Of a DNA stretch of 64,000 nucleotides, positions 32,415-62,901 are shown piece after piece. Source of the DNA: a virus; IMG/VR virus record IMGVR_UViG_3300034684_000299, positions 121,438 to 185,437 of that record; one strand, 5' to 3'. Position 1 is the first letter of the stretch. Each line of letters starts with the position of its first letter. The notes beneath the pieces were generated by a model that saw nothing but the letters and a program-made list of their open reading frames with translations, did no database searches and had not been told where the DNA came from. A program made the translations under genes and the position numbers.

Positions 32415-32953
32415 AAATACCAGAGTTATTAAGTATTTTTGGAGATCTAAAACCAAAAAATAAAGAGGTTTTGTACAATTTCTTAGTAGATCCAAGAACA
32501 TACAATGATAGAGGTGAAATTAAAGAGTTTAGACAGATATTGAGGGAAATGAAAAATGATTTGTTGTACTATGATGCATATTTTGATGAAGAAATGAGTC
32601 AAAGTGAAGAGAAGTTCAGACAACTAATAACTGAGAACAAAGGCAGATATAAGACCGTAACTATTAAAATGGAGGATTTATTTAAGATCTCCGAAGAAGA
32701 ATATCGATATTGGGTAGAATGTATAGAGGAAGAATATAATGCGATAATGACTGCTGGATTTGAGAAAATAGGAATAATTACTTATTATTTTGATTTAGAA
32801 AATGAAGAAACGTTGTCAGAAGCTGAAGCTGACAACGTACCTATGGGTGAAGAAAGGATAGAGAAATGGGTCGATCAGACAAATTCAAAATTTGATTTAT
32901 GGTCTGAAATAATTGAGTATTACATAGAAAAGAAAAAGGAGGAAAAATCTTGA
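32408..32953 (+). CDS. Family P9 protein with an extra N-terminal domain
   Basis: 181 residues. The last 105 residues are a standard P9 unit (YKTVTIKMEDLFKISEEEYRYWVECIEEEY, FEKIGIITYYFDLENEE, IEKWVDQTNSKFDLWSEIIEYYI). The first 75 (LEIPELLSIFGDLKPKNKEVLYNFLVDP) are not found in other members, so this is a fusion or the ancestral long form. A strong terminator follows. Confidence 0.75.
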   Translation: MLEIPELLSIFGDLKPKNKEVLYNFLVDPRTYNDRGEIKEFRQILREMKNDLLYYDAYFDEEMSQSEEKFRQLITENKGRYKTVTIKMEDLFKISEEEYRYWVECIEEEYNAIMTAGFEKIGIITYYFDLENEETLSEAEADNVPMGEERIEKWVDQTNSKFDLWSEIIEYYIEKKKEEKS

Positions 32954-33006
32954 ATGTACAAATATTTGAAACAAGGGATTAAGTTTCAATATCAATTAGA
33001 AATACA

Positions 33007-33037
33007 GCCCTATCTTTTAGGTAGGGCCTTTTTTTTA
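33007..33037 (+). terminator. Rho-independent terminator
   Basis: GCCCTA-tcttttagg-TAGGGC followed by C and eight T residues. Confidence 0.9.
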
Positions 33038-33086
33038 CCCTATTGAATTTTTTGAAATGATACAATGTAGACAGGAGGTGGGATAA

Positions 33087-33566
33087 ATGGACAAAGGAGA
33101 ACTAATTGAACAAGCCAAGAAAATGGAACAAGAAAGCACTTATTCCGCTGTTGCACATTTTATTATGTACAAGATATGGAATAATTTTCGTTTTTTTATA
33201 GGTATACCTGCTATTATTTTGAACGTTGTTTGGCTTATTCTTATGATACCTAATTTTAATCTAGATATCTATATATTAGGAATAACAGAATTATTATTAG
33301 TAGCTTTTTTAGTTTTTTACGATATAGATCTAAAAAAAGATAGATATAGCAAGACATGGAAACGATATTATTCTATTAAATTAAAAATACACAATTTAAC
33401 TCAGCATTCTAAAGGGGAAATAGACAAGGAGATGTTTCAAAAAATAAGATTTGAATTTGAAGAGTTAAACAACAATGCACCAAAAGTCTGGAAATATGTC
33501 GATAAGATTTCTAAAACAAGTAAAATAGATACTTCCAAAGGAAAAACCACTGGAAAAAATAAGTAA
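33087..33566 (+). CDS. SLATT-like two-TM membrane protein
   Basis: 159 residues. An amphipathic lead (LIEQAKKMEQESTYSAVAHFIMYKIW) precedes two TM helices at about 35-52 (FFIGIPAIILNVVWLILMI) and 59-77, then a long cytosolic helical tail (RYSKTWKRYYSIKLKIHNL). The xSAxxHxxxxxxW...GIPAxxLN pattern and the two-TM-plus-helix layout fit the SLATT domain, known as a pore-forming effector in nucleotide-signalling and TM-effector defence systems. No nucleotide cyclase, SLOG or reverse transcriptase gene is next to it, so a stand-alone role is likely. A TGATACAAT extended -10 lies about 25 bases upstream. The family call is by eye. Confidence 0.6.
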   Translation: MDKGELIEQAKKMEQESTYSAVAHFIMYKIWNNFRFFIGIPAIILNVVWLILMIPNFNLDIYILGITELLLVAFLVFYDIDLKKDRYSKTWKRYYSIKLKIHNLTQHSKGEIDKEMFQKIRFEFEELNNNAPKVWKYVDKISKTSKIDTSKGKTTGKNK

Positions 33567-33613
33567 TGATATAATTATTAAGACAATTGACAAAATTTTT
33601 AAAGGAGGGGAAG

Positions 33614-33637
33614 GTGCGTTTTTTGCACAGAATATAA
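33614..33637 (+). CDS. Putative seven-codon leader peptide (MRFLHRI)
   Basis: GTG CGT TTT TTG CAC AGA ATA TAA, with an ideal SD (GGAGG, spacing five). Its stop overlaps the ATG of the 33637 gene (TAATG). It also forms the GTGC/GCAC hairpin between that SD and the downstream ATG. Either the leader is translated and ribosomes restart at TAATG, or the hairpin brings the SD near the ATG. Confidence 0.45.
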   Translation: MRFLHRI

Positions 33638-34995
33638 TGGAAGAAAAATTATTAAAATTAGCTTCAAATGTTGAACTTTACCAATACGACAGACCGATTG
33701 GTCCTGGTCAAGGAGCAGAAGATTATTTATCTTATCAATTAATGAAACAAAAACAAGAAGAAGATAGGAAAAAAGCCAGAAAAGAAGGGAGAGGTGTCGC
33801 TATAGCAACTGGAGCAGGATTAGGAGCTTTAGCATCGTTGATAGCTAGAAAACCATTAGGTTTGGATGCACTACCAAATAAAATGCAAGCTGGACTAATA
33901 CTAGGTGGAGCTGGCGAAGGTGCTATCGCAGCAGGAATTCCTTATGCAGTTGGAAGGACGAGTGAAGAAAGAAAATACAAAAAGTTAGAAAAGAAAGGAG
34001 CAGATATTGAAGGCACTTATACTCCAGTTAATTATGAATTAACACCTGAACAATATGAGGCGTTGCAAAAAGAGCAAGAACGATTAGTAAAAAAGGTATC
34101 AAGAGCTAATATATCGGGAGCGGTAGGAGCTGGTGCCGCAACTGCAGCTGGGTTAGCAGCTTTAATAGCTGGTAAAAATTTGAAAACAAAAACTCCAAAA
34201 GAATTAGGAAAATATTTTGCAACTTCTGCAGGTGCTGGTGCTGCAGCTGGATTAGCTGGGAACATAGGGGGATTAGCTGCCGCTACTTCAACTGCTAAAA
34301 AGGAATTAGATAAAAAAGCTGAATTGTTTAATGCGGGAGTTAACTATGCACTAAAACAAGCTGAGTTAACACCTGCTGAAGAAAGAAAATTGCAACAAAT
34401 GCAAGCAGAATATTATCAAACAATGAGCGATCTCGAAAGGAGATATTACAATAGATACCAGGAAGAAAAAAGAAATGTAGAAAAGAAACAAATGGCTAAG
34501 AACTTAGGTGCTGGTGCTTTAACAGGAGCTGCTGTGGGTTCAACTGTTGGGTTAATTGCTACACCTAAACCAAATAAAATGTCTGGGACGGCTAAAGGTG
34601 CTATTGGCGGAGCCGCTGTTGGAACTCTTGGTAGATATGTGGGTGAAAAGGTTAAAAAGGGTAAAGAGCAAAAAGTAATAGACGAAATAGCATACACTAA
34701 AGCATTGCAAGGTGGTAATCCTTACAGCCCAGAATATGACTTAGCATTAATGAGATATACTAAAAATGCATCTGATAATACGGAAGATATATTAAAAAAA
34801 AGAGCTAATTTTTTTAAAGGGGCTTACAAGAATTTAAGTCAATTCATGAATCAAGTAAAAAAAGATATATTGAGTACTTCTGATGGAAGTATAAAAAAAA
34901 ATAAAATAAATGTTGAGGAACCCAAAAGTATACGTCAGACTAACAAAAAGATAACCGAAGATCAGGTTAAAACACAGCCTCAAGCTGGAATGTAA
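33637..34995 (+). CDS. Glycine/alanine-zipper protein, probable virion or membrane-active protein
   Basis: 452 residues. The N-terminus (MEEKLLKLASNVELYQYDRPIGPGQG) is a degenerate form of the tag found on late minus-strand proteins. Glycine-zipper hydrophobic segments follow: ATGAGLGALASLIA near 55, GAVGAGAATAAGLAAL near 155, SAGAGAAAGLAGNIGGLAAAT near 195 and GAGALTGAAVGSTVGLIA near 290. Charged helices separate them, including LFNAGVNYALKQAELTPAEERKL near 235. Such repeats can form membrane-inserting helices in ejected internal proteins. It is the only gene of this kind on the plus strand. Its SD lies 27 bases upstream of the ATG. Confidence 0.75.
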   Translation: MEEKLLKLASNVELYQYDRPIGPGQGAEDYLSYQLMKQKQEEDRKKARKEGRGVAIATGAGLGALASLIARKPLGLDALPNKMQAGLILGGAGEGAIAAGIPYAVGRTSEERKYKKLEKKGADIEGTYTPVNYELTPEQYEALQKEQERLVKKVSRANISGAVGAGAATAAGLAALIAGKNLKTKTPKELGKYFATSAGAGAAAGLAGNIGGLAAATSTAKKELDKKAELFNAGVNYALKQAELTPAEERKLQQMQAEYYQTMSDLERRYYNRYQEEKRNVEKKQMAKNLGAGALTGAAVGSTVGLIATPKPNKMSGTAKGAIGGAAVGTLGRYVGEKVKKGKEQKVIDEIAYTKALQGGNPYSPEYDLALMRYTKNASDNTEDILKKRANFFKGAYKNLSQFMNQVKKDILSTSDGSIKKNKINVEEPKSIRQTNKKITEDQVKTQPQAGM

Positions 34996-35226: not shown

Positions 35227-36282
35227 TTATATTTTTAGTTCATTCGGTTCTATACTATCATATTCTATTCCAGCAAAGCAATTAAGAATAGCTTCAAAAA
35301 TAATCTTTGCTCCTTGACAAGGTACTGCCATTCCTATTTGTTTTCGCACACTCTCTTTTGTCCCAAAGAAAACATACGTATCCGGGAAAGTTTGAAGTCG
35401 AGCTCTTTCTCTGTTTGTTAAAGCTCTAGGCTCTGACCAGTGATACATATGAGTTCCTCCACCTCCACTACCAGTAACTGTATAAGCGGGTTTATTTGGG
35501 TCCAATCTCTTATAAATTTGGCTTATTTTTGCACCTTTTACTTTTAATTGAAGCTCTGGAGGAAGATTAGCTGTAAAAGCATTTTCCCCGGGCTTAATAT
35601 GAAGAAGCCTTTGTATTACAGTTTCAGATTGTTGGGTTCTTTCATTGTTTGGAGCATCCGCAGGTATTGGAGGCACTTCAAGTGCAGTACGACATGTATT
35701 ATCAATATTTGCATAAGGGGCAGGGGATGGCACTTTAAAAGTTACATTTATATCATTTCGAATACCTACAATAATAATTCGGTGTCGTGACTGTGGTATT
35801 CCATATTCCTCAAATTTATATAAATGTGGAGTAATTGTATACCCGGCTTCCTGTAATTCATTCAGTATTTTTGTAAAAGCTTTTCCGTCATTGGCATTAC
35901 GAAGTCCACCTACATTCTCTGCAAGGAACCACATAGGGCGAAACTTTTTCAATGCTTTAACTCCATAAGAATATAACGGTCCAAAAACTCCGTTAATTCC
36001 TTTCTGTTCGCCAACTATACTAAAATCATTGCATGGGAAACCGAATGCCAAAGCATCAATTGGAGATAATTTATCCATATCTAGTTTGCGAATATCTTCT
36101 TGATAAACTGTTTCTGGATTGTTTGGACAAATATTGTAGCGATATGTTTTACAGGTATCTTCATCGTAATCACTAGCCCATTCATGGACTATAAAATGCT
36201 GTCCGTCAGCACTGGTGGCATTTATAGCGCCGTAAGCAAGTCCTCCAGGTCCACAGAATAATTCACCTAATCTATATTTCAT
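35227..36282 (-). CDS. C5-cytosine DNA methyltransferase
   Basis: 351 residues. Motif I is LFCGPGGLAYG (8-18). Motif IV is FGFPCNDFS (80-88) with catalytic Cys84. Motif VI is ENVGGL (122-127), motif VIII QSRHRIIIVGIR near 163-174, and motifs IX-X are TNRERARLQTFPD...IGMAVPCQGAK. The target-recognition region between VIII and IX is short and includes GSGGGGTHMYHW. It methylates cytosine C5 in an unknown site. No restriction enzyme gene is adjacent. The gene is less AT-rich than its neighbours and is framed by two copies of a promoter-hairpin unit, which suggests a transferred cassette. An extended -10 (TGTTATAAT at about 36322-36330) gives it its own promoter. Confidence 0.93.
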   Translation of the reverse strand: MKYRLGELFCGPGGLAYGAINATSADGQHFIVHEWASDYDEDTCKTYRYNICPNNPETVYQEDIRKLDMDKLSPIDALAFGFPCNDFSIVGEQKGINGVFGPLYSYGVKALKKFRPMWFLAENVGGLRNANDGKAFTKILNELQEAGYTITPHLYKFEEYGIPQSRHRIIIVGIRNDINVTFKVPSPAPYANIDNTCRTALEVPPIPADAPNNERTQQSETVIQRLLHIKPGENAFTANLPPELQLKVKGAKISQIYKRLDPNKPAYTVTGSGGGGTHMYHWSEPRALTNRERARLQTFPDTYVFFGTKESVRKQIGMAVPCQGAKIIFEAILNCFAGIEYDSIEPNELKI

Positions 36283-47391: not shown

Positions 47392-49026
47392 TTAAATTTC
47401 GTTGTTTGGGAATCTGAATATAAGATAAGCTATTTTGTTTTCAACACCAGCAACTATAGCATTCTGTGCGGCAGTTTCTTCAGCCTTTTTTGCTTGCCAG
47501 TTGTTGGCAAAGTTTATCATGTTATCCATGTTCGATGTGATATCGTTTATTTGGTCATCAAAGTTTATAGGCATTGTTAATGTGTACAAATCTTCTGTCT
47601 CTTTAATAAGAGGTATATCTCTATATGCAAAATTTAAATCTGATAATGATAGATTTTTGAATTTATCCAGTAATTCTCTCCCTTGTTGTGTAGAAATAAA
47701 GAAATCTTCTTTTTTTGTCTGTTCAGTATGAGAAAATCTATCGAGATATTCCCCCATAATATTTATTATGTATCCTCTTATCCCTTCAGTTATTAACCCT
47801 AGCATCTGTAAATTCTTTTGATGTATTTTAGGCATTATTTGATTTTCTAACAACCATAGAACAAATAAAGTCGTATTGTATGGATGTATCCCCGCCCTTC
47901 CCCAATCAGTAAAAGTGTCTTGTGGGTTGTAGAACTCAGTTGCCAAATTTTGCAAGTCTAGTTCAGTTTGCCAATCAAGATAATCCATCAATTGTTTGTA
48001 TCCCGGAAGGTTCAGTTCGTTGTATTCGCCTACTAAATTGACAGGATTATCGAATAATTTTCTGTATTCATCGGATAATGCAATTTGTCTGGCTTCGTTA
48101 ATCCTTTCTATCTCATATGTTATATCAGATAGAGTGGTAGTATCGGTATAATATATTTTAGTATTTTCTATTTCTTCTAACTTTGAATTAAGGGCTCTTT
48201 TTAAATCCGGTAGGATGTTCTTTTTTAATTCAGGATGTCCATACATATTTACGTATGTGGGTTGATAATTGAACCCAAATTGTTCGTTGTAGAGATCATA
48301 AAAATTTTTTATAGGTTCATTTATACTGTTCTCTTCTTCTGGTCCTAACACTATGGGTGTCCAAGGGTCTTGAGTTGAAAAATAATAATTACCTTGTTTC
48401 CCAATTCCAGCTAGTATATCGTCAATAGATATATTTATGTTCATTTCGTATTTTAGTTCGTTCAATAGTTGAGTATCAGAACTTCTATCTATATCGCTTG
48501 GTGTTATGTTATTAAAATTTCTTAAATCCAAGACAGTATACGACCCTCTGTAATTGTAAGTATTGAATATGTATATCTTTCCACCGGAGATTATAGGTAT
48601 TAAAGGATAAGGTGGTTGCACTATTCTATCAAGTGCATAACTAGAACCTTGTTTACGTATTAGTAAAAATTCTTGGTTTTGTGTCCAGCCAGCTTTTGAT
48701 TGGATTGACATAAAATGCTTTTTAAATATGTCCAACGTGGTTTTCAAAATTTCATCTGTTATTAGCGTTTCCTCTTGCGGAACATTTATATCGTAATACT
48801 CTACATAACTTCTAAAATAAACATAAAAATCGTCCAACATGATTTTTTTAGTAGTTACAGTAGTAGTTGGGAATATGTTTATATTGTACAAACTATTTTT
48901 GTTTGTATTTAATTCTCTAAATACTAATTTGTAGTTAGAGTTAGAATCTATATTTGTTTTTTTTGAAAGAAAATCATTTTTATATGTAGTTAATTGATTG
49001 ATTACATTCTGAGTTTGTTCGTCTAT
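47392..49026 (-). CDS. Large late structural protein with non-standard start
   Basis: 544 residues if counted from 49026. The first standard start codon (TTG at 48891) has no SD and cuts off 45 codons of coherent coding sequence (IDEQTQNVINQLTTYKNDFL). The frame is open back to the TGA of the upstream gene and is in the same frame as it. The only start-like codon near the GGGGG is an ATA at 49024-49026. Options are an ATA start, TGA readthrough giving a fusion with the 49030 gene, or the TTG. No domain recognised; late tail operon. Confidence 0.65.
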   Translation of the reverse strand: MDEQTQNVINQLTTYKNDFLSKKTNIDSNSNYKLVFRELNTNKNSLYNINIFPTTTVTTKKIMLDDFYVYFRSYVEYYDINVPQEETLITDEILKTTLDIFKKHFMSIQSKAGWTQNQEFLLIRKQGSSYALDRIVQPPYPLIPIISGGKIYIFNTYNYRGSYTVLDLRNFNNITPSDIDRSSDTQLLNELKYEMNINISIDDILAGIGKQGNYYFSTQDPWTPIVLGPEEENSINEPIKNFYDLYNEQFGFNYQPTYVNMYGHPELKKNILPDLKRALNSKLEEIENTKIYYTDTTTLSDITYEIERINEARQIALSDEYRKLFDNPVNLVGEYNELNLPGYKQLMDYLDWQTELDLQNLATEFYNPQDTFTDWGRAGIHPYNTTLFVLWLLENQIMPKIHQKNLQMLGLITEGIRGYIINIMGEYLDRFSHTEQTKKEDFFISTQQGRELLDKFKNLSLSDLNFAYRDIPLIKETEDLYTLTMPINFDDQINDITSNMDNMINFANNWQAKKAEETAAQNAIVAGVENKIAYLIFRFPNNEI

Positions 49027-49029
49027 GGA

Positions 49030-50391
49030 TCACACCCCCAACAATGCGTCCAACGATTGCCCTGTTATAGCTTGGGTAATATATGGAGCATACGTTACTA
49101 TCATCAATAAATATATGAAATTCAAATTCTGTACGTTGTCTAATTTTACTTCGAGATACGATTCTAGCGTTATCTCTAAACTGTTTTCAAGTACGTTTAA
49201 AGCATCTTCGGAACCAAACATGTTCATAAGACGTATCTGTTCATTTTCATCTTTTATATTGAAATTCAACATATTGTTTGTTTTCATAAGCAATAAAATT
49301 TCAGCAAAATAAGCAACCATTTCATAGACGGCACATGGTCTTTCATTCCACTCCGCTATTTTTTCTGTTATTTCACGCAATAATACTTTTAGCCTTTCTT
49401 TTTCCCAGTCTTTTTGTGTATCAATTTCAAAGTCAAACATTTTTATTATCTTTAAAGGATAAACAATAGCATTAGGTATGAACATCATCATGTTACTTAA
49501 CGATTGTGCCCCTGCACCTATATCATGAGCAAATTCATCTATCTGATCTTTGAATAGTTCATATAACAACAAAGAAGCATACGTTGCCCAATAAGAATCT
49601 GTACAGCTATAATCAGCTTGAAGATTGTTATGCGATAAAAATGCGTTGAAATTTAGCAGAGCAGCTGTCATGTTACCAGCAGATAGTTGTTGAGCTATTT
49701 GTAAAAGCATTTGTTTGTCAGTATATGCCTTATTCATACTTCCAAAATATCCGTCTATCTTATCCTGAGTAGCTTGACCTTCAGGTGAGTTGTCAAATTC
49801 TATATCTTTACCTGTGAGCATTTTATATGCTATTTTGAAATCGTTCTGTGCGACTCTCAATACATCTGCTTCAACTTGTTGGGATTCTTTTAAAACACCT
49901 ACATTCTCAACAGCTTGCGTTAAACCCATGTATGCTTGAAATAGGTCATTAGAATATATATTGTCTTCATACCATTGGTTCACTATTTCTTGATAGAAAT
50001 GAGCGGATAGATACTTGCTAGGGTCTACACCGTCCTCTTTCATTTTTTTTACAGTGAGATTCCATAAAGTATTGAATGTTGCTTCTATGAACCCTTTAAT
50101 TACAGATGTTTTCGTATCCAGCAAAAATTTTTCTTGCCGTAAATTTCTTTCATGTTCTATACTAGAAATTTCACCTGCATTGTATTTCATAGTAGATTCT
50201 TTAACCTTTTCGTTGTAAGTAGCCTCAAAATGTTTTACAATACGTTTGGTAACATCTTTGGCAGGTTGTTTGAAAGAGATAACATCAACTAGATATTGAG
50301 CTGTTTTATTGCTATCTCTTAAAGTATTTTCAAGATTTTGAGCTTCCTCTTTAGCTTTTGTCATAGCTTGAGCTATTTCTGTTTGTGTCAT
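49030..50391 (-). CDS. Large late structural protein, unknown
   Basis: 453 residues, mostly helical (TEIAQAMTKAKEEAQNLENTL...). Contains a hydrophobic segment near residue 315 (SNMMMFIPNAIVYPLKIIKMF). It ends in SLDALLGV followed by a TGA after which the frame stays open. It may form a fusion with the next gene if the TGA is read through. SD is 26 bases upstream with a hairpin between. Confidence 0.7.
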   Translation of the reverse strand: MTQTEIAQAMTKAKEEAQNLENTLRDSNKTAQYLVDVISFKQPAKDVTKRIVKHFEATYNEKVKESTMKYNAGEISSIEHERNLRQEKFLLDTKTSVIKGFIEATFNTLWNLTVKKMKEDGVDPSKYLSAHFYQEIVNQWYEDNIYSNDLFQAYMGLTQAVENVGVLKESQQVEADVLRVAQNDFKIAYKMLTGKDIEFDNSPEGQATQDKIDGYFGSMNKAYTDKQMLLQIAQQLSAGNMTAALLNFNAFLSHNNLQADYSCTDSYWATYASLLLYELFKDQIDEFAHDIGAGAQSLSNMMMFIPNAIVYPLKIIKMFDFEIDTQKDWEKERLKVLLREITEKIAEWNERPCAVYEMVAYFAEILLLMKTNNMLNFNIKDENEQIRLMNMFGSEDALNVLENSLEITLESYLEVKLDNVQNLNFIYLLMIVTYAPYITQAITGQSLDALLGV

Positions 50392-61348: not shown

Positions 61349-61948
61349 TCAAATTAGTTCTTCGTACATCATTAAGATTTTTGTTGCACCGGTAGGATTT
61401 GTCATAGTACAATTGACAAATTTACTCTGCAAAATCAAATAATCAGTATAATATTTTTTACCAATAACAGTGATACCATCGACTCCATATACATTTTCTT
61501 CATAAATATTAGAAACCAAAATATCAGGATTAGAATCAATTCTATCTGCTCCTGCAAAACAAATCATATAAGATGTATTTGGAGCAGTTTTTGTTGGTTT
61601 CTTAACACCTGAACTATATTCAGTCGGGGTAGCTAATCCTGCATAAAATGAATACATATTAACTGCTTCAGGAGTTGTAAAAGGAATATCAAATGAAAAT
61701 TGTACAGATAATATTTCAGTAGTATCGTCATCTAGAAACCATGCTCTAAGATATCTTTGCATTGAATAGACGGTAGTGGAGGGATCAATTTTTACCCCCA
61801 TGTTTATATCAGAACCGTCAATATAATTGTCCACATCGCCTATAATGATTAATGGATTCGGAGACGATATGTCAATAGTTGAAGGGAAATGGTTAATACC
61901 AACATTAGGATCACCCCAAGCAACTTGATATTTTACTGTTCTAGCCAT
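61349..61948 (-). CDS. Probable tail-tube-like protein
   Basis: 199 residues: ARTVKYQVAWGDPNVGINHFPSTIDISSP, SMQRYLRAWFLDDDTTEILSVQFSFDIPF, CTMTNPTGATKILMMYEELI. Size, beta-rich pattern and neighbourhood fit a tail-tube or related virion protein. There is no diagnostic motif, so the call is tentative. Confidence 0.45.
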   Translation of the reverse strand: MARTVKYQVAWGDPNVGINHFPSTIDISSPNPLIIIGDVDNYIDGSDINMGVKIDPSTTVYSMQRYLRAWFLDDDTTEILSVQFSFDIPFTTPEAVNMYSFYAGLATPTEYSSGVKKPTKTAPNTSYMICFAGADRIDSNPDILVSNIYEENVYGVDGITVIGKKYYTDYLILQSKFVNCTMTNPTGATKILMMYEELI

Positions 61949-61956
61949 ATTTTATT

Positions 61957-61991
61957 GCCGAACATATTATATGTTCTGGCTTCTATCCTCC
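61957..61991 (-). promoter_or_regulatory. SD - hairpin - start arrangement for the 61948 gene
   Basis: Minus strand GGAGG (61987-61991), then GCCaGAACATAT-a-ATATGTTCgGC (61957-61980), then AATAAAAT and the ATG. Distance 38 bases unfolded. Confidence 0.55.
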
Positions 61992-62011
61992 TTTTAAAAA
62001 TTATTGCAAAT

Positions 62012-62057
62012 AGGTGCCAGGAGTTCCCTGCCCCAACGAGCAGGGAAAATAGCACCT
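62012..62057. other. Strong two-part hairpin between late genes
   Basis: AGGTGC/GCACCT outer and TTCCCTGC/GCAGGGAA inner stems in the 149-base gap between 61948 and 62098. There is no T-run on the minus strand; CTTTTCTTT follows on the plus strand. It may be a processing site, an mRNA stabiliser or a plus-strand terminator. Confidence 0.6.
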
Positions 62058-62097
62058 TTTCTTTGTTATCAGATTTTGATAGAACAAAGAAACAATA

Positions 62098-62901
62098 TCA
62101 AATAATTATTCTTGAATCATAAGATACGTCAAATAATTCATTAATTTTTGACTCTACTGGTTCTAATTCATTATTCATATTAACGTATAAAACACTAGCT
62201 TCAGTTCTGACGTCTGCCATTACTCCTTCTCTAACAATGGAACCGTCTGTAGCTTTAATATCTAAAATAACTTTATCTCCTTCAGAAAAATCGGTAGAAG
62301 AAATATTTAATTTAAGTTCATAAACACCAGTATTTCCAACTTTAATAAAAGAAAATCCACCATATATATCTTTCTTTAAAGGATATTTAAAAGTAATTGT
62401 TGTTCCGTTAATTTCAGAAACTTTCAAATATTGTGAATATTCTTCCATTATACCCGAAATTTCTGTTTCAACTTCACCCCATGTTGTTGTTGTACCGATA
62501 GTTAGAGTACTACTGATGGCATCAAGCCGAGCTTGTAATTCTGATACTAAAGCAGTTCTAGTTCCGTTAGGATCAATAACTGTTGTAGATATAGGCCCAA
62601 TTTTAACTTTATCGGTTACAGATACCCCAGTGTTTCCTGAAACTGTTACATCGTATATAGCTGTTGCTGAATTTAATACATCTACATCATTTGAAACTGT
62701 AATAGCAGGAGAATAATCCGTTATATGAGGCATGATAATTTCACTTAAATTATGAACGGTATCTGTAATTCCAGTTATTGTTTTTGCTGTGGAAGTTTTA
62801 TCTAAAACACGTATATTTGCTTGTAAAGTTTTAGCCAATGAATTTAATCCTGCATTAACTATGACAGTAGCAGTTTCATTTATAACAAACGTATTAGCCA
62901 T
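62098..62901 (-). CDS. Virion protein with Ig-like beta domains
   Basis: 267 residues: FVINETATVIVNAGLNSLAKTLQANIRVLDKTS, ATAIYDVTVSGNTGVSVTDKVKIGP, TGVYELKLNISSTDFSEGDKVILDIKATDG, and a helical end ELEPVESKINELFDVS. Related in layout to the 62918 product. Possibly a decoration or tail-adhesin protein. Confidence 0.65.
   Translation of the reverse strand: MANTFVINETATVIVNAGLNSLAKTLQANIRVLDKTSTAKTITGITDTVHNLSEIIMPHITDYSPAITVSNDVDVLNSATAIYDVTVSGNTGVSVTDKVKIGPISTTVIDPNGTRTALVSELQARLDAISSTLTIGTTTTWGEVETEISGIMEEYSQYLKVSEINGTTITFKYPLKKDIYGGFSFIKVGNTGVYELKLNISSTDFSEGDKVILDIKATDGSIVREGVMADVRTEASVLYVNMNNELEPVESKINELFDVSYDSRIII

Follow-up and report, generated by a model that had tools for sequence, protein, structure and literature searches.

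Evidence for a probable AUA start codon one codon past the stop of an upstream gene in a tailed phage genome

A two-gene junction on the minus strand

Two genes of 453 and 544 codons lie one behind the other on the minus strand of the window, the 64,000-nucleotide stretch of DNA that was analysed here and that corresponds to bases 121438-185437 of a 185,437-base IMG/VR virus record (Table 1). The predicted proteins of this record identify it as a tailed phage, with PHROGs matches for the large terminase subunit and for a portal protein, and a protein that matches, at 25%, the major capsid protein annotated in Salmonella phage Arash. On the minus strand, the junction between the two genes reads GAC GCA TTG TTG GGG GTG TGA TCC ATA GAC GAA CAA ACT. 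The frame of the upstream gene is open again from the TCC directly after its TGA, over 545 amino acids, and the first ATG, GTG or TTG that it contains is a TTG located 45 codons past the ATA. A sequence-only reading of this locus had described an upstream gene ending in GGG GTG TGA with an open frame beyond it, which sequence and translation bear out. It had also counted 45 codons before a TTG devoid of a Shine-Dalgarno (SD) sequence, and the TTG indeed has an SD score of only 4; the 998 residues that it gave for a fused product agree with the arithmetic (453 + 545). Its view of TGA as a normal stop, with global recoding unlikely, is likewise upheld: the 80 tabulated main-strand open reading frames (ORFs) of the window end with TAA in 47 cases, TGA in 24 and TAG in 9, so that TGA is an ordinary stop in this window and its global recoding was rejected.

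Table 1. Features of the junction and of the rest of the record (window positions unless the record is named)
Feature	Position	Strand	Remarks
Upstream gene, 453 aa	49030..50391	-	ends ...LLGV, then TGA at 49032-49030
Downstream gene from ATA, 544 aa	47392..49026	-	ortholog in G002; one of the five pairs lacking a canonical start close to where homology begins
Proposed start codon ATA	49024..49026	-	G002 has ATG there, second codon past the stop
Predicted SD GGGGGTG	49033..49039	-	within the end of the upstream gene; score 18; identical in G002
Disputed 45 codons, coding as judged from G002	48892..49026	-	21/45 residues identical in G002
TTG, first canonical start, rejected	48889..48891	-	SD score 4; internal Leu codon in G002
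Probable -1 frameshift product	32516-32872 of record		one of the five pairs
Pair, probably antisense	62291-62692 of record		one of the five pairs
Pair matched internally only	154966-156432 of record		one of the five pairs
Overlap case	180536-181063 of record		one of the five pairs; GTG behind GGGGGG is the likely start
RusA-like gene (PF05866)	61616-62110 of record, outside window	+	relative at L022:4153-4572
Probable -1 frameshift locus	32516-33618 of record, outside window	-	relative at G002:88138-89351
Glycine-zipper-like protein (below Pfam cut-off)	33529-34995	+
ORF presumed C-5 type methylase-like	35227-36282
Two adjacent ORFs, presumably TnpA/TnpB	107016-108640 of record		85% and 71% identical to G002 counterparts

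The 46 open codons that precede the first canonical start are the longest such stretch among the 80 ORFs, the next ones having 36 and 35. Given the local base composition, the chance of 46 stop-free codons is about 0.011, and about 0.004 if canonical starts must be absent too. A chance of about 0.01 for the open stretch by itself is not overwhelming; the case is decided by a related genome. An out-of-frame GTG at the junction was rejected as a start, the frame that it opens having just 17 codons.

Searches for relatives of the two proteins were carried out in several collections. PHROGs contained no family for either protein at an E value of 0.1, Pfam returned two matches for the downstream protein, both below cut-offs, and nothing for the upstream one, and no solved relative of either was found in the PDB. 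AlphaFold models of the two proteins have mean pLDDT values of 41 and 31, too low for use. No relative of either was detected by tblastn in 50,697 phage records, or by a profile search of Salmonella phage Arash and Vibrio phage D69 that was run without a positive control. Scans of viral sequences and of genomes for relatives returned two records only. The first, G001 (45 kb), is near-identical to this genome and aligns with approximately 57.7-103 kb of the record, without either gene. The second, G002 (IMGVR_UViG_3300035529_000070, 183.5 kb), has a terminase 74% identical to that of this phage and is the single informative relative for the junction.

Comparison of the junction with a related genome

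Both genes are found in G002 in the same order, with 57% identity over residues 1-453 of the upstream protein and 47% over residues 2-544 of the downstream one, which has 3 extra residues close to its N-terminus in G002. The G002 junction reads CTG GGG GTG TAA ACT ATG GCT ACA. A TAA thus occupies the place of the TGA, the GGGGGTG ahead of it is identical in both genomes, and the ATG aligns exactly with the ATA of the window. The sequence-only reading had offered an ATA start with GGGGGT upstream as one candidate, and had pointed to an ATG at this place or a fused gene in relatives as informative; G002 backs this candidate with an ATG at the very position of the ATA behind the same SD, and its two genes are separate, with the TAA between them. 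The ATA itself is not conserved, since the sole informative relative carries ATG. We infer that ATG is the ancestral codon at the junction, although a single relative does not give the polarity of the ATG/ATA change.

Homology between the downstream proteins begins at residue 2, right after the ATA. In the 44 aligned codons of the disputed stretch, the proportion of nonsynonymous differences from G002 (pN 0.327) is close to that of the rest of the gene (0.325), and differences at codon positions 1, 2 and 3 number 13, 13 and 24. Over the disputed stretch dN is 0.43 and dS 1.30 (dN/dS of approximately 0.33), and the other two reading frames of the 45 codons have no excess of silent changes relative to G002. 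These comparisons indicate that the 45 codons are protein-coding and under purifying selection, and that coding begins at the AUA. A lack of similarity in the 45 codons, which the sequence-only reading had named as grounds for abandoning its proposal, is contradicted by the conservation of this stretch in G002.

The predicted SD is strong and suitably spaced for a start at AUA, GGGGG lying 8 nt from the ATA. Its value of 18, from a simple score for pairing with the standard 16S tail, equals the upper quartile of 105 genes of this genome (median 15), a reference in which each gene is represented by whichever of its first two canonical starts scores higher. Scores as high as 18 are reached by 39 of 28,652 internal codons, and by 3 of 1,308 internal ATA codons. 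The SD letters double as codons for the conserved LLGV, and in the window the hairpin that overlaps the SD does not exceed shuffled sequences in stability (z of +0.57).

Start codons and other features of the record

Reciprocal best hits between this genome and G002 gave 155 pairs, which were reduced to 118 by removing nested shadows, to 106 by a stricter filter and to 101 by dropping five pairs antisense to one 2,613-codon gene; these filters are rough and analyst-made, and have probably left some shadow pairs in the set of 101. Starts chosen by rule for this genome are ATG in 77 pairs, TTG in 13 and GTG in 6, and in the five remaining pairs this genome has no canonical start close to where homology begins. 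Among these five, the downstream gene of the junction stands alone in having an ortholog whose ATG is well placed and preceded by a strong SD.

A second candidate is the RusA-like gene, in which AGAGGGGG lies seven bases (by the spacing of the score) ahead of an ATT where homology to G002 begins. The ATT stretch is identical in G001, and the G002 counterpart has AGGAG eight bases ahead of an ATA at the aligned place. The gene may therefore start with ATT, and with ATA in G002. We regard this ATT as a lead and not as a result, because later ATGs are possible starts (codon 34 here, codon 11 in G002) and because the preceding gene ends within the ATT stretch here. It is doubtful that this phage lineage relies on near-cognate AUA and AUU starts behind strong SDs, at the junction and in the RusA-like gene, as a means of limiting protein output.

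Several other features of the record were observed. At the probable -1 frameshift locus, a 239-amino acid gene ends with ATT AAA AAT TTT TAA, the -1 frame AAA TTT TTA runs on for about 118 codons, homology to G002 runs through the overlap and both genomes share the heptamer A AAT TTT; the locus adjoins a 1372-amino acid gene, an organization that we take to resemble the tail-chaperone G/GT arrangement. The first canonical start of the glycine-zipper-like gene is an ATG at 33637 without an SD, with 36 open codons ahead of it, including a CTG behind AAAGGA. A genome scan for the host with the TnpB-like protein of the presumed IS200/IS605-type TnpA/TnpB pair as bait gave no match and no relative of that protein. 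Across the whole record, GATC occurs 360 times versus 581 expected, GGATCC 5 versus 15.4 and TGATCA 39 versus 76.2 by a first-order count, which perhaps reflects restriction avoidance. Loss of a CCATGG site by a G-to-A change was considered as a reason for the ATA and rejected: CCATGG is observed 14 times versus 14.9 expected and is not avoided.

Initiation at AUA and alternative readings

We favor, with a probability of about 0.7, the interpretation that the junction holds two separate adjacent genes, the second of which begins at AUA, read as fMet. As judged from the sequence, initiation at this AUA in the host is likewise probable. Translation of the upstream gene would terminate at the TGA, its last codons holding the strong SD, and the AUA one codon past the stop would be decoded as fMet by the initiator tRNA. 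Initiation would probably proceed via termination-reinitiation or via 30S binding at the exposed SD, possibly aided by translational coupling, and the yield from AUA is probably reduced relative to AUG.

A start at the TTG, with the 45 codons ahead of it untranslated, would have the advantage of using the first canonical start of the frame, and TTG starts are chosen by our rule for 13 of the 101 paired genes of this phage. It is nevertheless very unlikely because the conserved 45 codons, which match the rest of the gene at the protein level, would be discarded; this TTG is also without an SD and stands at the position of an internal Leu codon in G002. We give just as little credence to programmed readthrough of the TGA yielding the 998-residue fusion along with a 453-residue form, the other candidate of the sequence-only reading. 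Programmed UGA readthrough exists, as in the coat protein of Q-beta, and the phage locus is similar to that system in that a UGA closes the upstream protein and the frame is open beyond it; the frame likewise stays open across the TAA of G002. Unlike the Q-beta coat readthrough, however, the relative has a UAA followed by its own AUG behind an SD, from which it follows that a separate start serves the downstream gene and that no in-frame extension lacking one is kept in G002. Moreover, RNA structure on the 3′ side of the TGA does not exceed that of shuffled sequences (z of +1.25), ARAGORN detected one tRNA in the whole record, a tRNA-Asn, and no suppressor, and TGA terminates other genes in the ordinary way. 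Readthrough is left unsupported by these observations, and the finding is most likely an unusual instance of a known phenomenon.

More weight, although still well short of an even chance, is due to the explanation that the true codon is ATG and that the ATA entered the assembly through an erroneous base or from an allele that is minor or defective (start loss). A single base separates ATA from ATG, G002 carries ATG at this position, and the sequences searched contain no independent copy of the junction: the exact junction pattern, with the third base of the start left free, had no match in the viral collection, scans of which may omit the window's own record and those very close to it, and one match, with ATA, in its own record. 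ATG-to-ATA start mutations are also known as natural defects or attenuations in the cases described in PMC2766830 and PMC12864459. On the other hand, no defect is seen elsewhere in the downstream gene, whose 545 codons are uninterrupted and evolve under purifying selection. In the main alignments with G001, over approximately 45 kb elsewhere in the genome, a single base differs; this suggests few consensus errors, although it is not proved that G001 was sequenced separately.

Our interpretation of an AUA start is comparable with previously described cases, which indicate that AUA is a poor start that can nonetheless function behind a strong SD. In PMC13009471, AUA starts are reported for infC, ccpN and citZ of S. 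aureus, with extended SDs for infC and ccpN; the ccpN and citZ AUA reporters reach about 10% of AUG, and ccpN up to 30% in rich medium. An AUA start in E. coli is stated to give up to 1% of ATG (Hecht 2017 as cited in PMC12864459). The phage gene is similar to the three S. aureus genes, as portrayed there, in having an AUA behind a strong, well-spaced SD, one base from AUG, but its SD sits in the end of the upstream gene, unlike theirs. The S. aureus starts were mapped by ribosome profiling, whereas the phage AUA is a start predicted from sequence, and the ccpN AUA is described as conserved in B. subtilis, in contrast to the ATG of the sole phage relative. The rpoS allele of E. coli O104:H4, for which an at most five-fold drop is given (PMC12864459), and silCR of a GAS strain, described as no longer forming SilCR after the change from ATG to ATA (PMC2766830), also have ATA where relatives have ATG; unlike the phage gene, both are presented as variants within a species for which a loss of product was measured or stated.

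Gene callers limited to ATG, GTG and TTG would cut 45 residues from the downstream protein, an error that comparison with one relative mends. If the AUA is confirmed, a phage gene would join the natural AUA starts, and the AUG/AUA ortholog pair behind the same SD would allow the cost of initiating at AUA to be measured.
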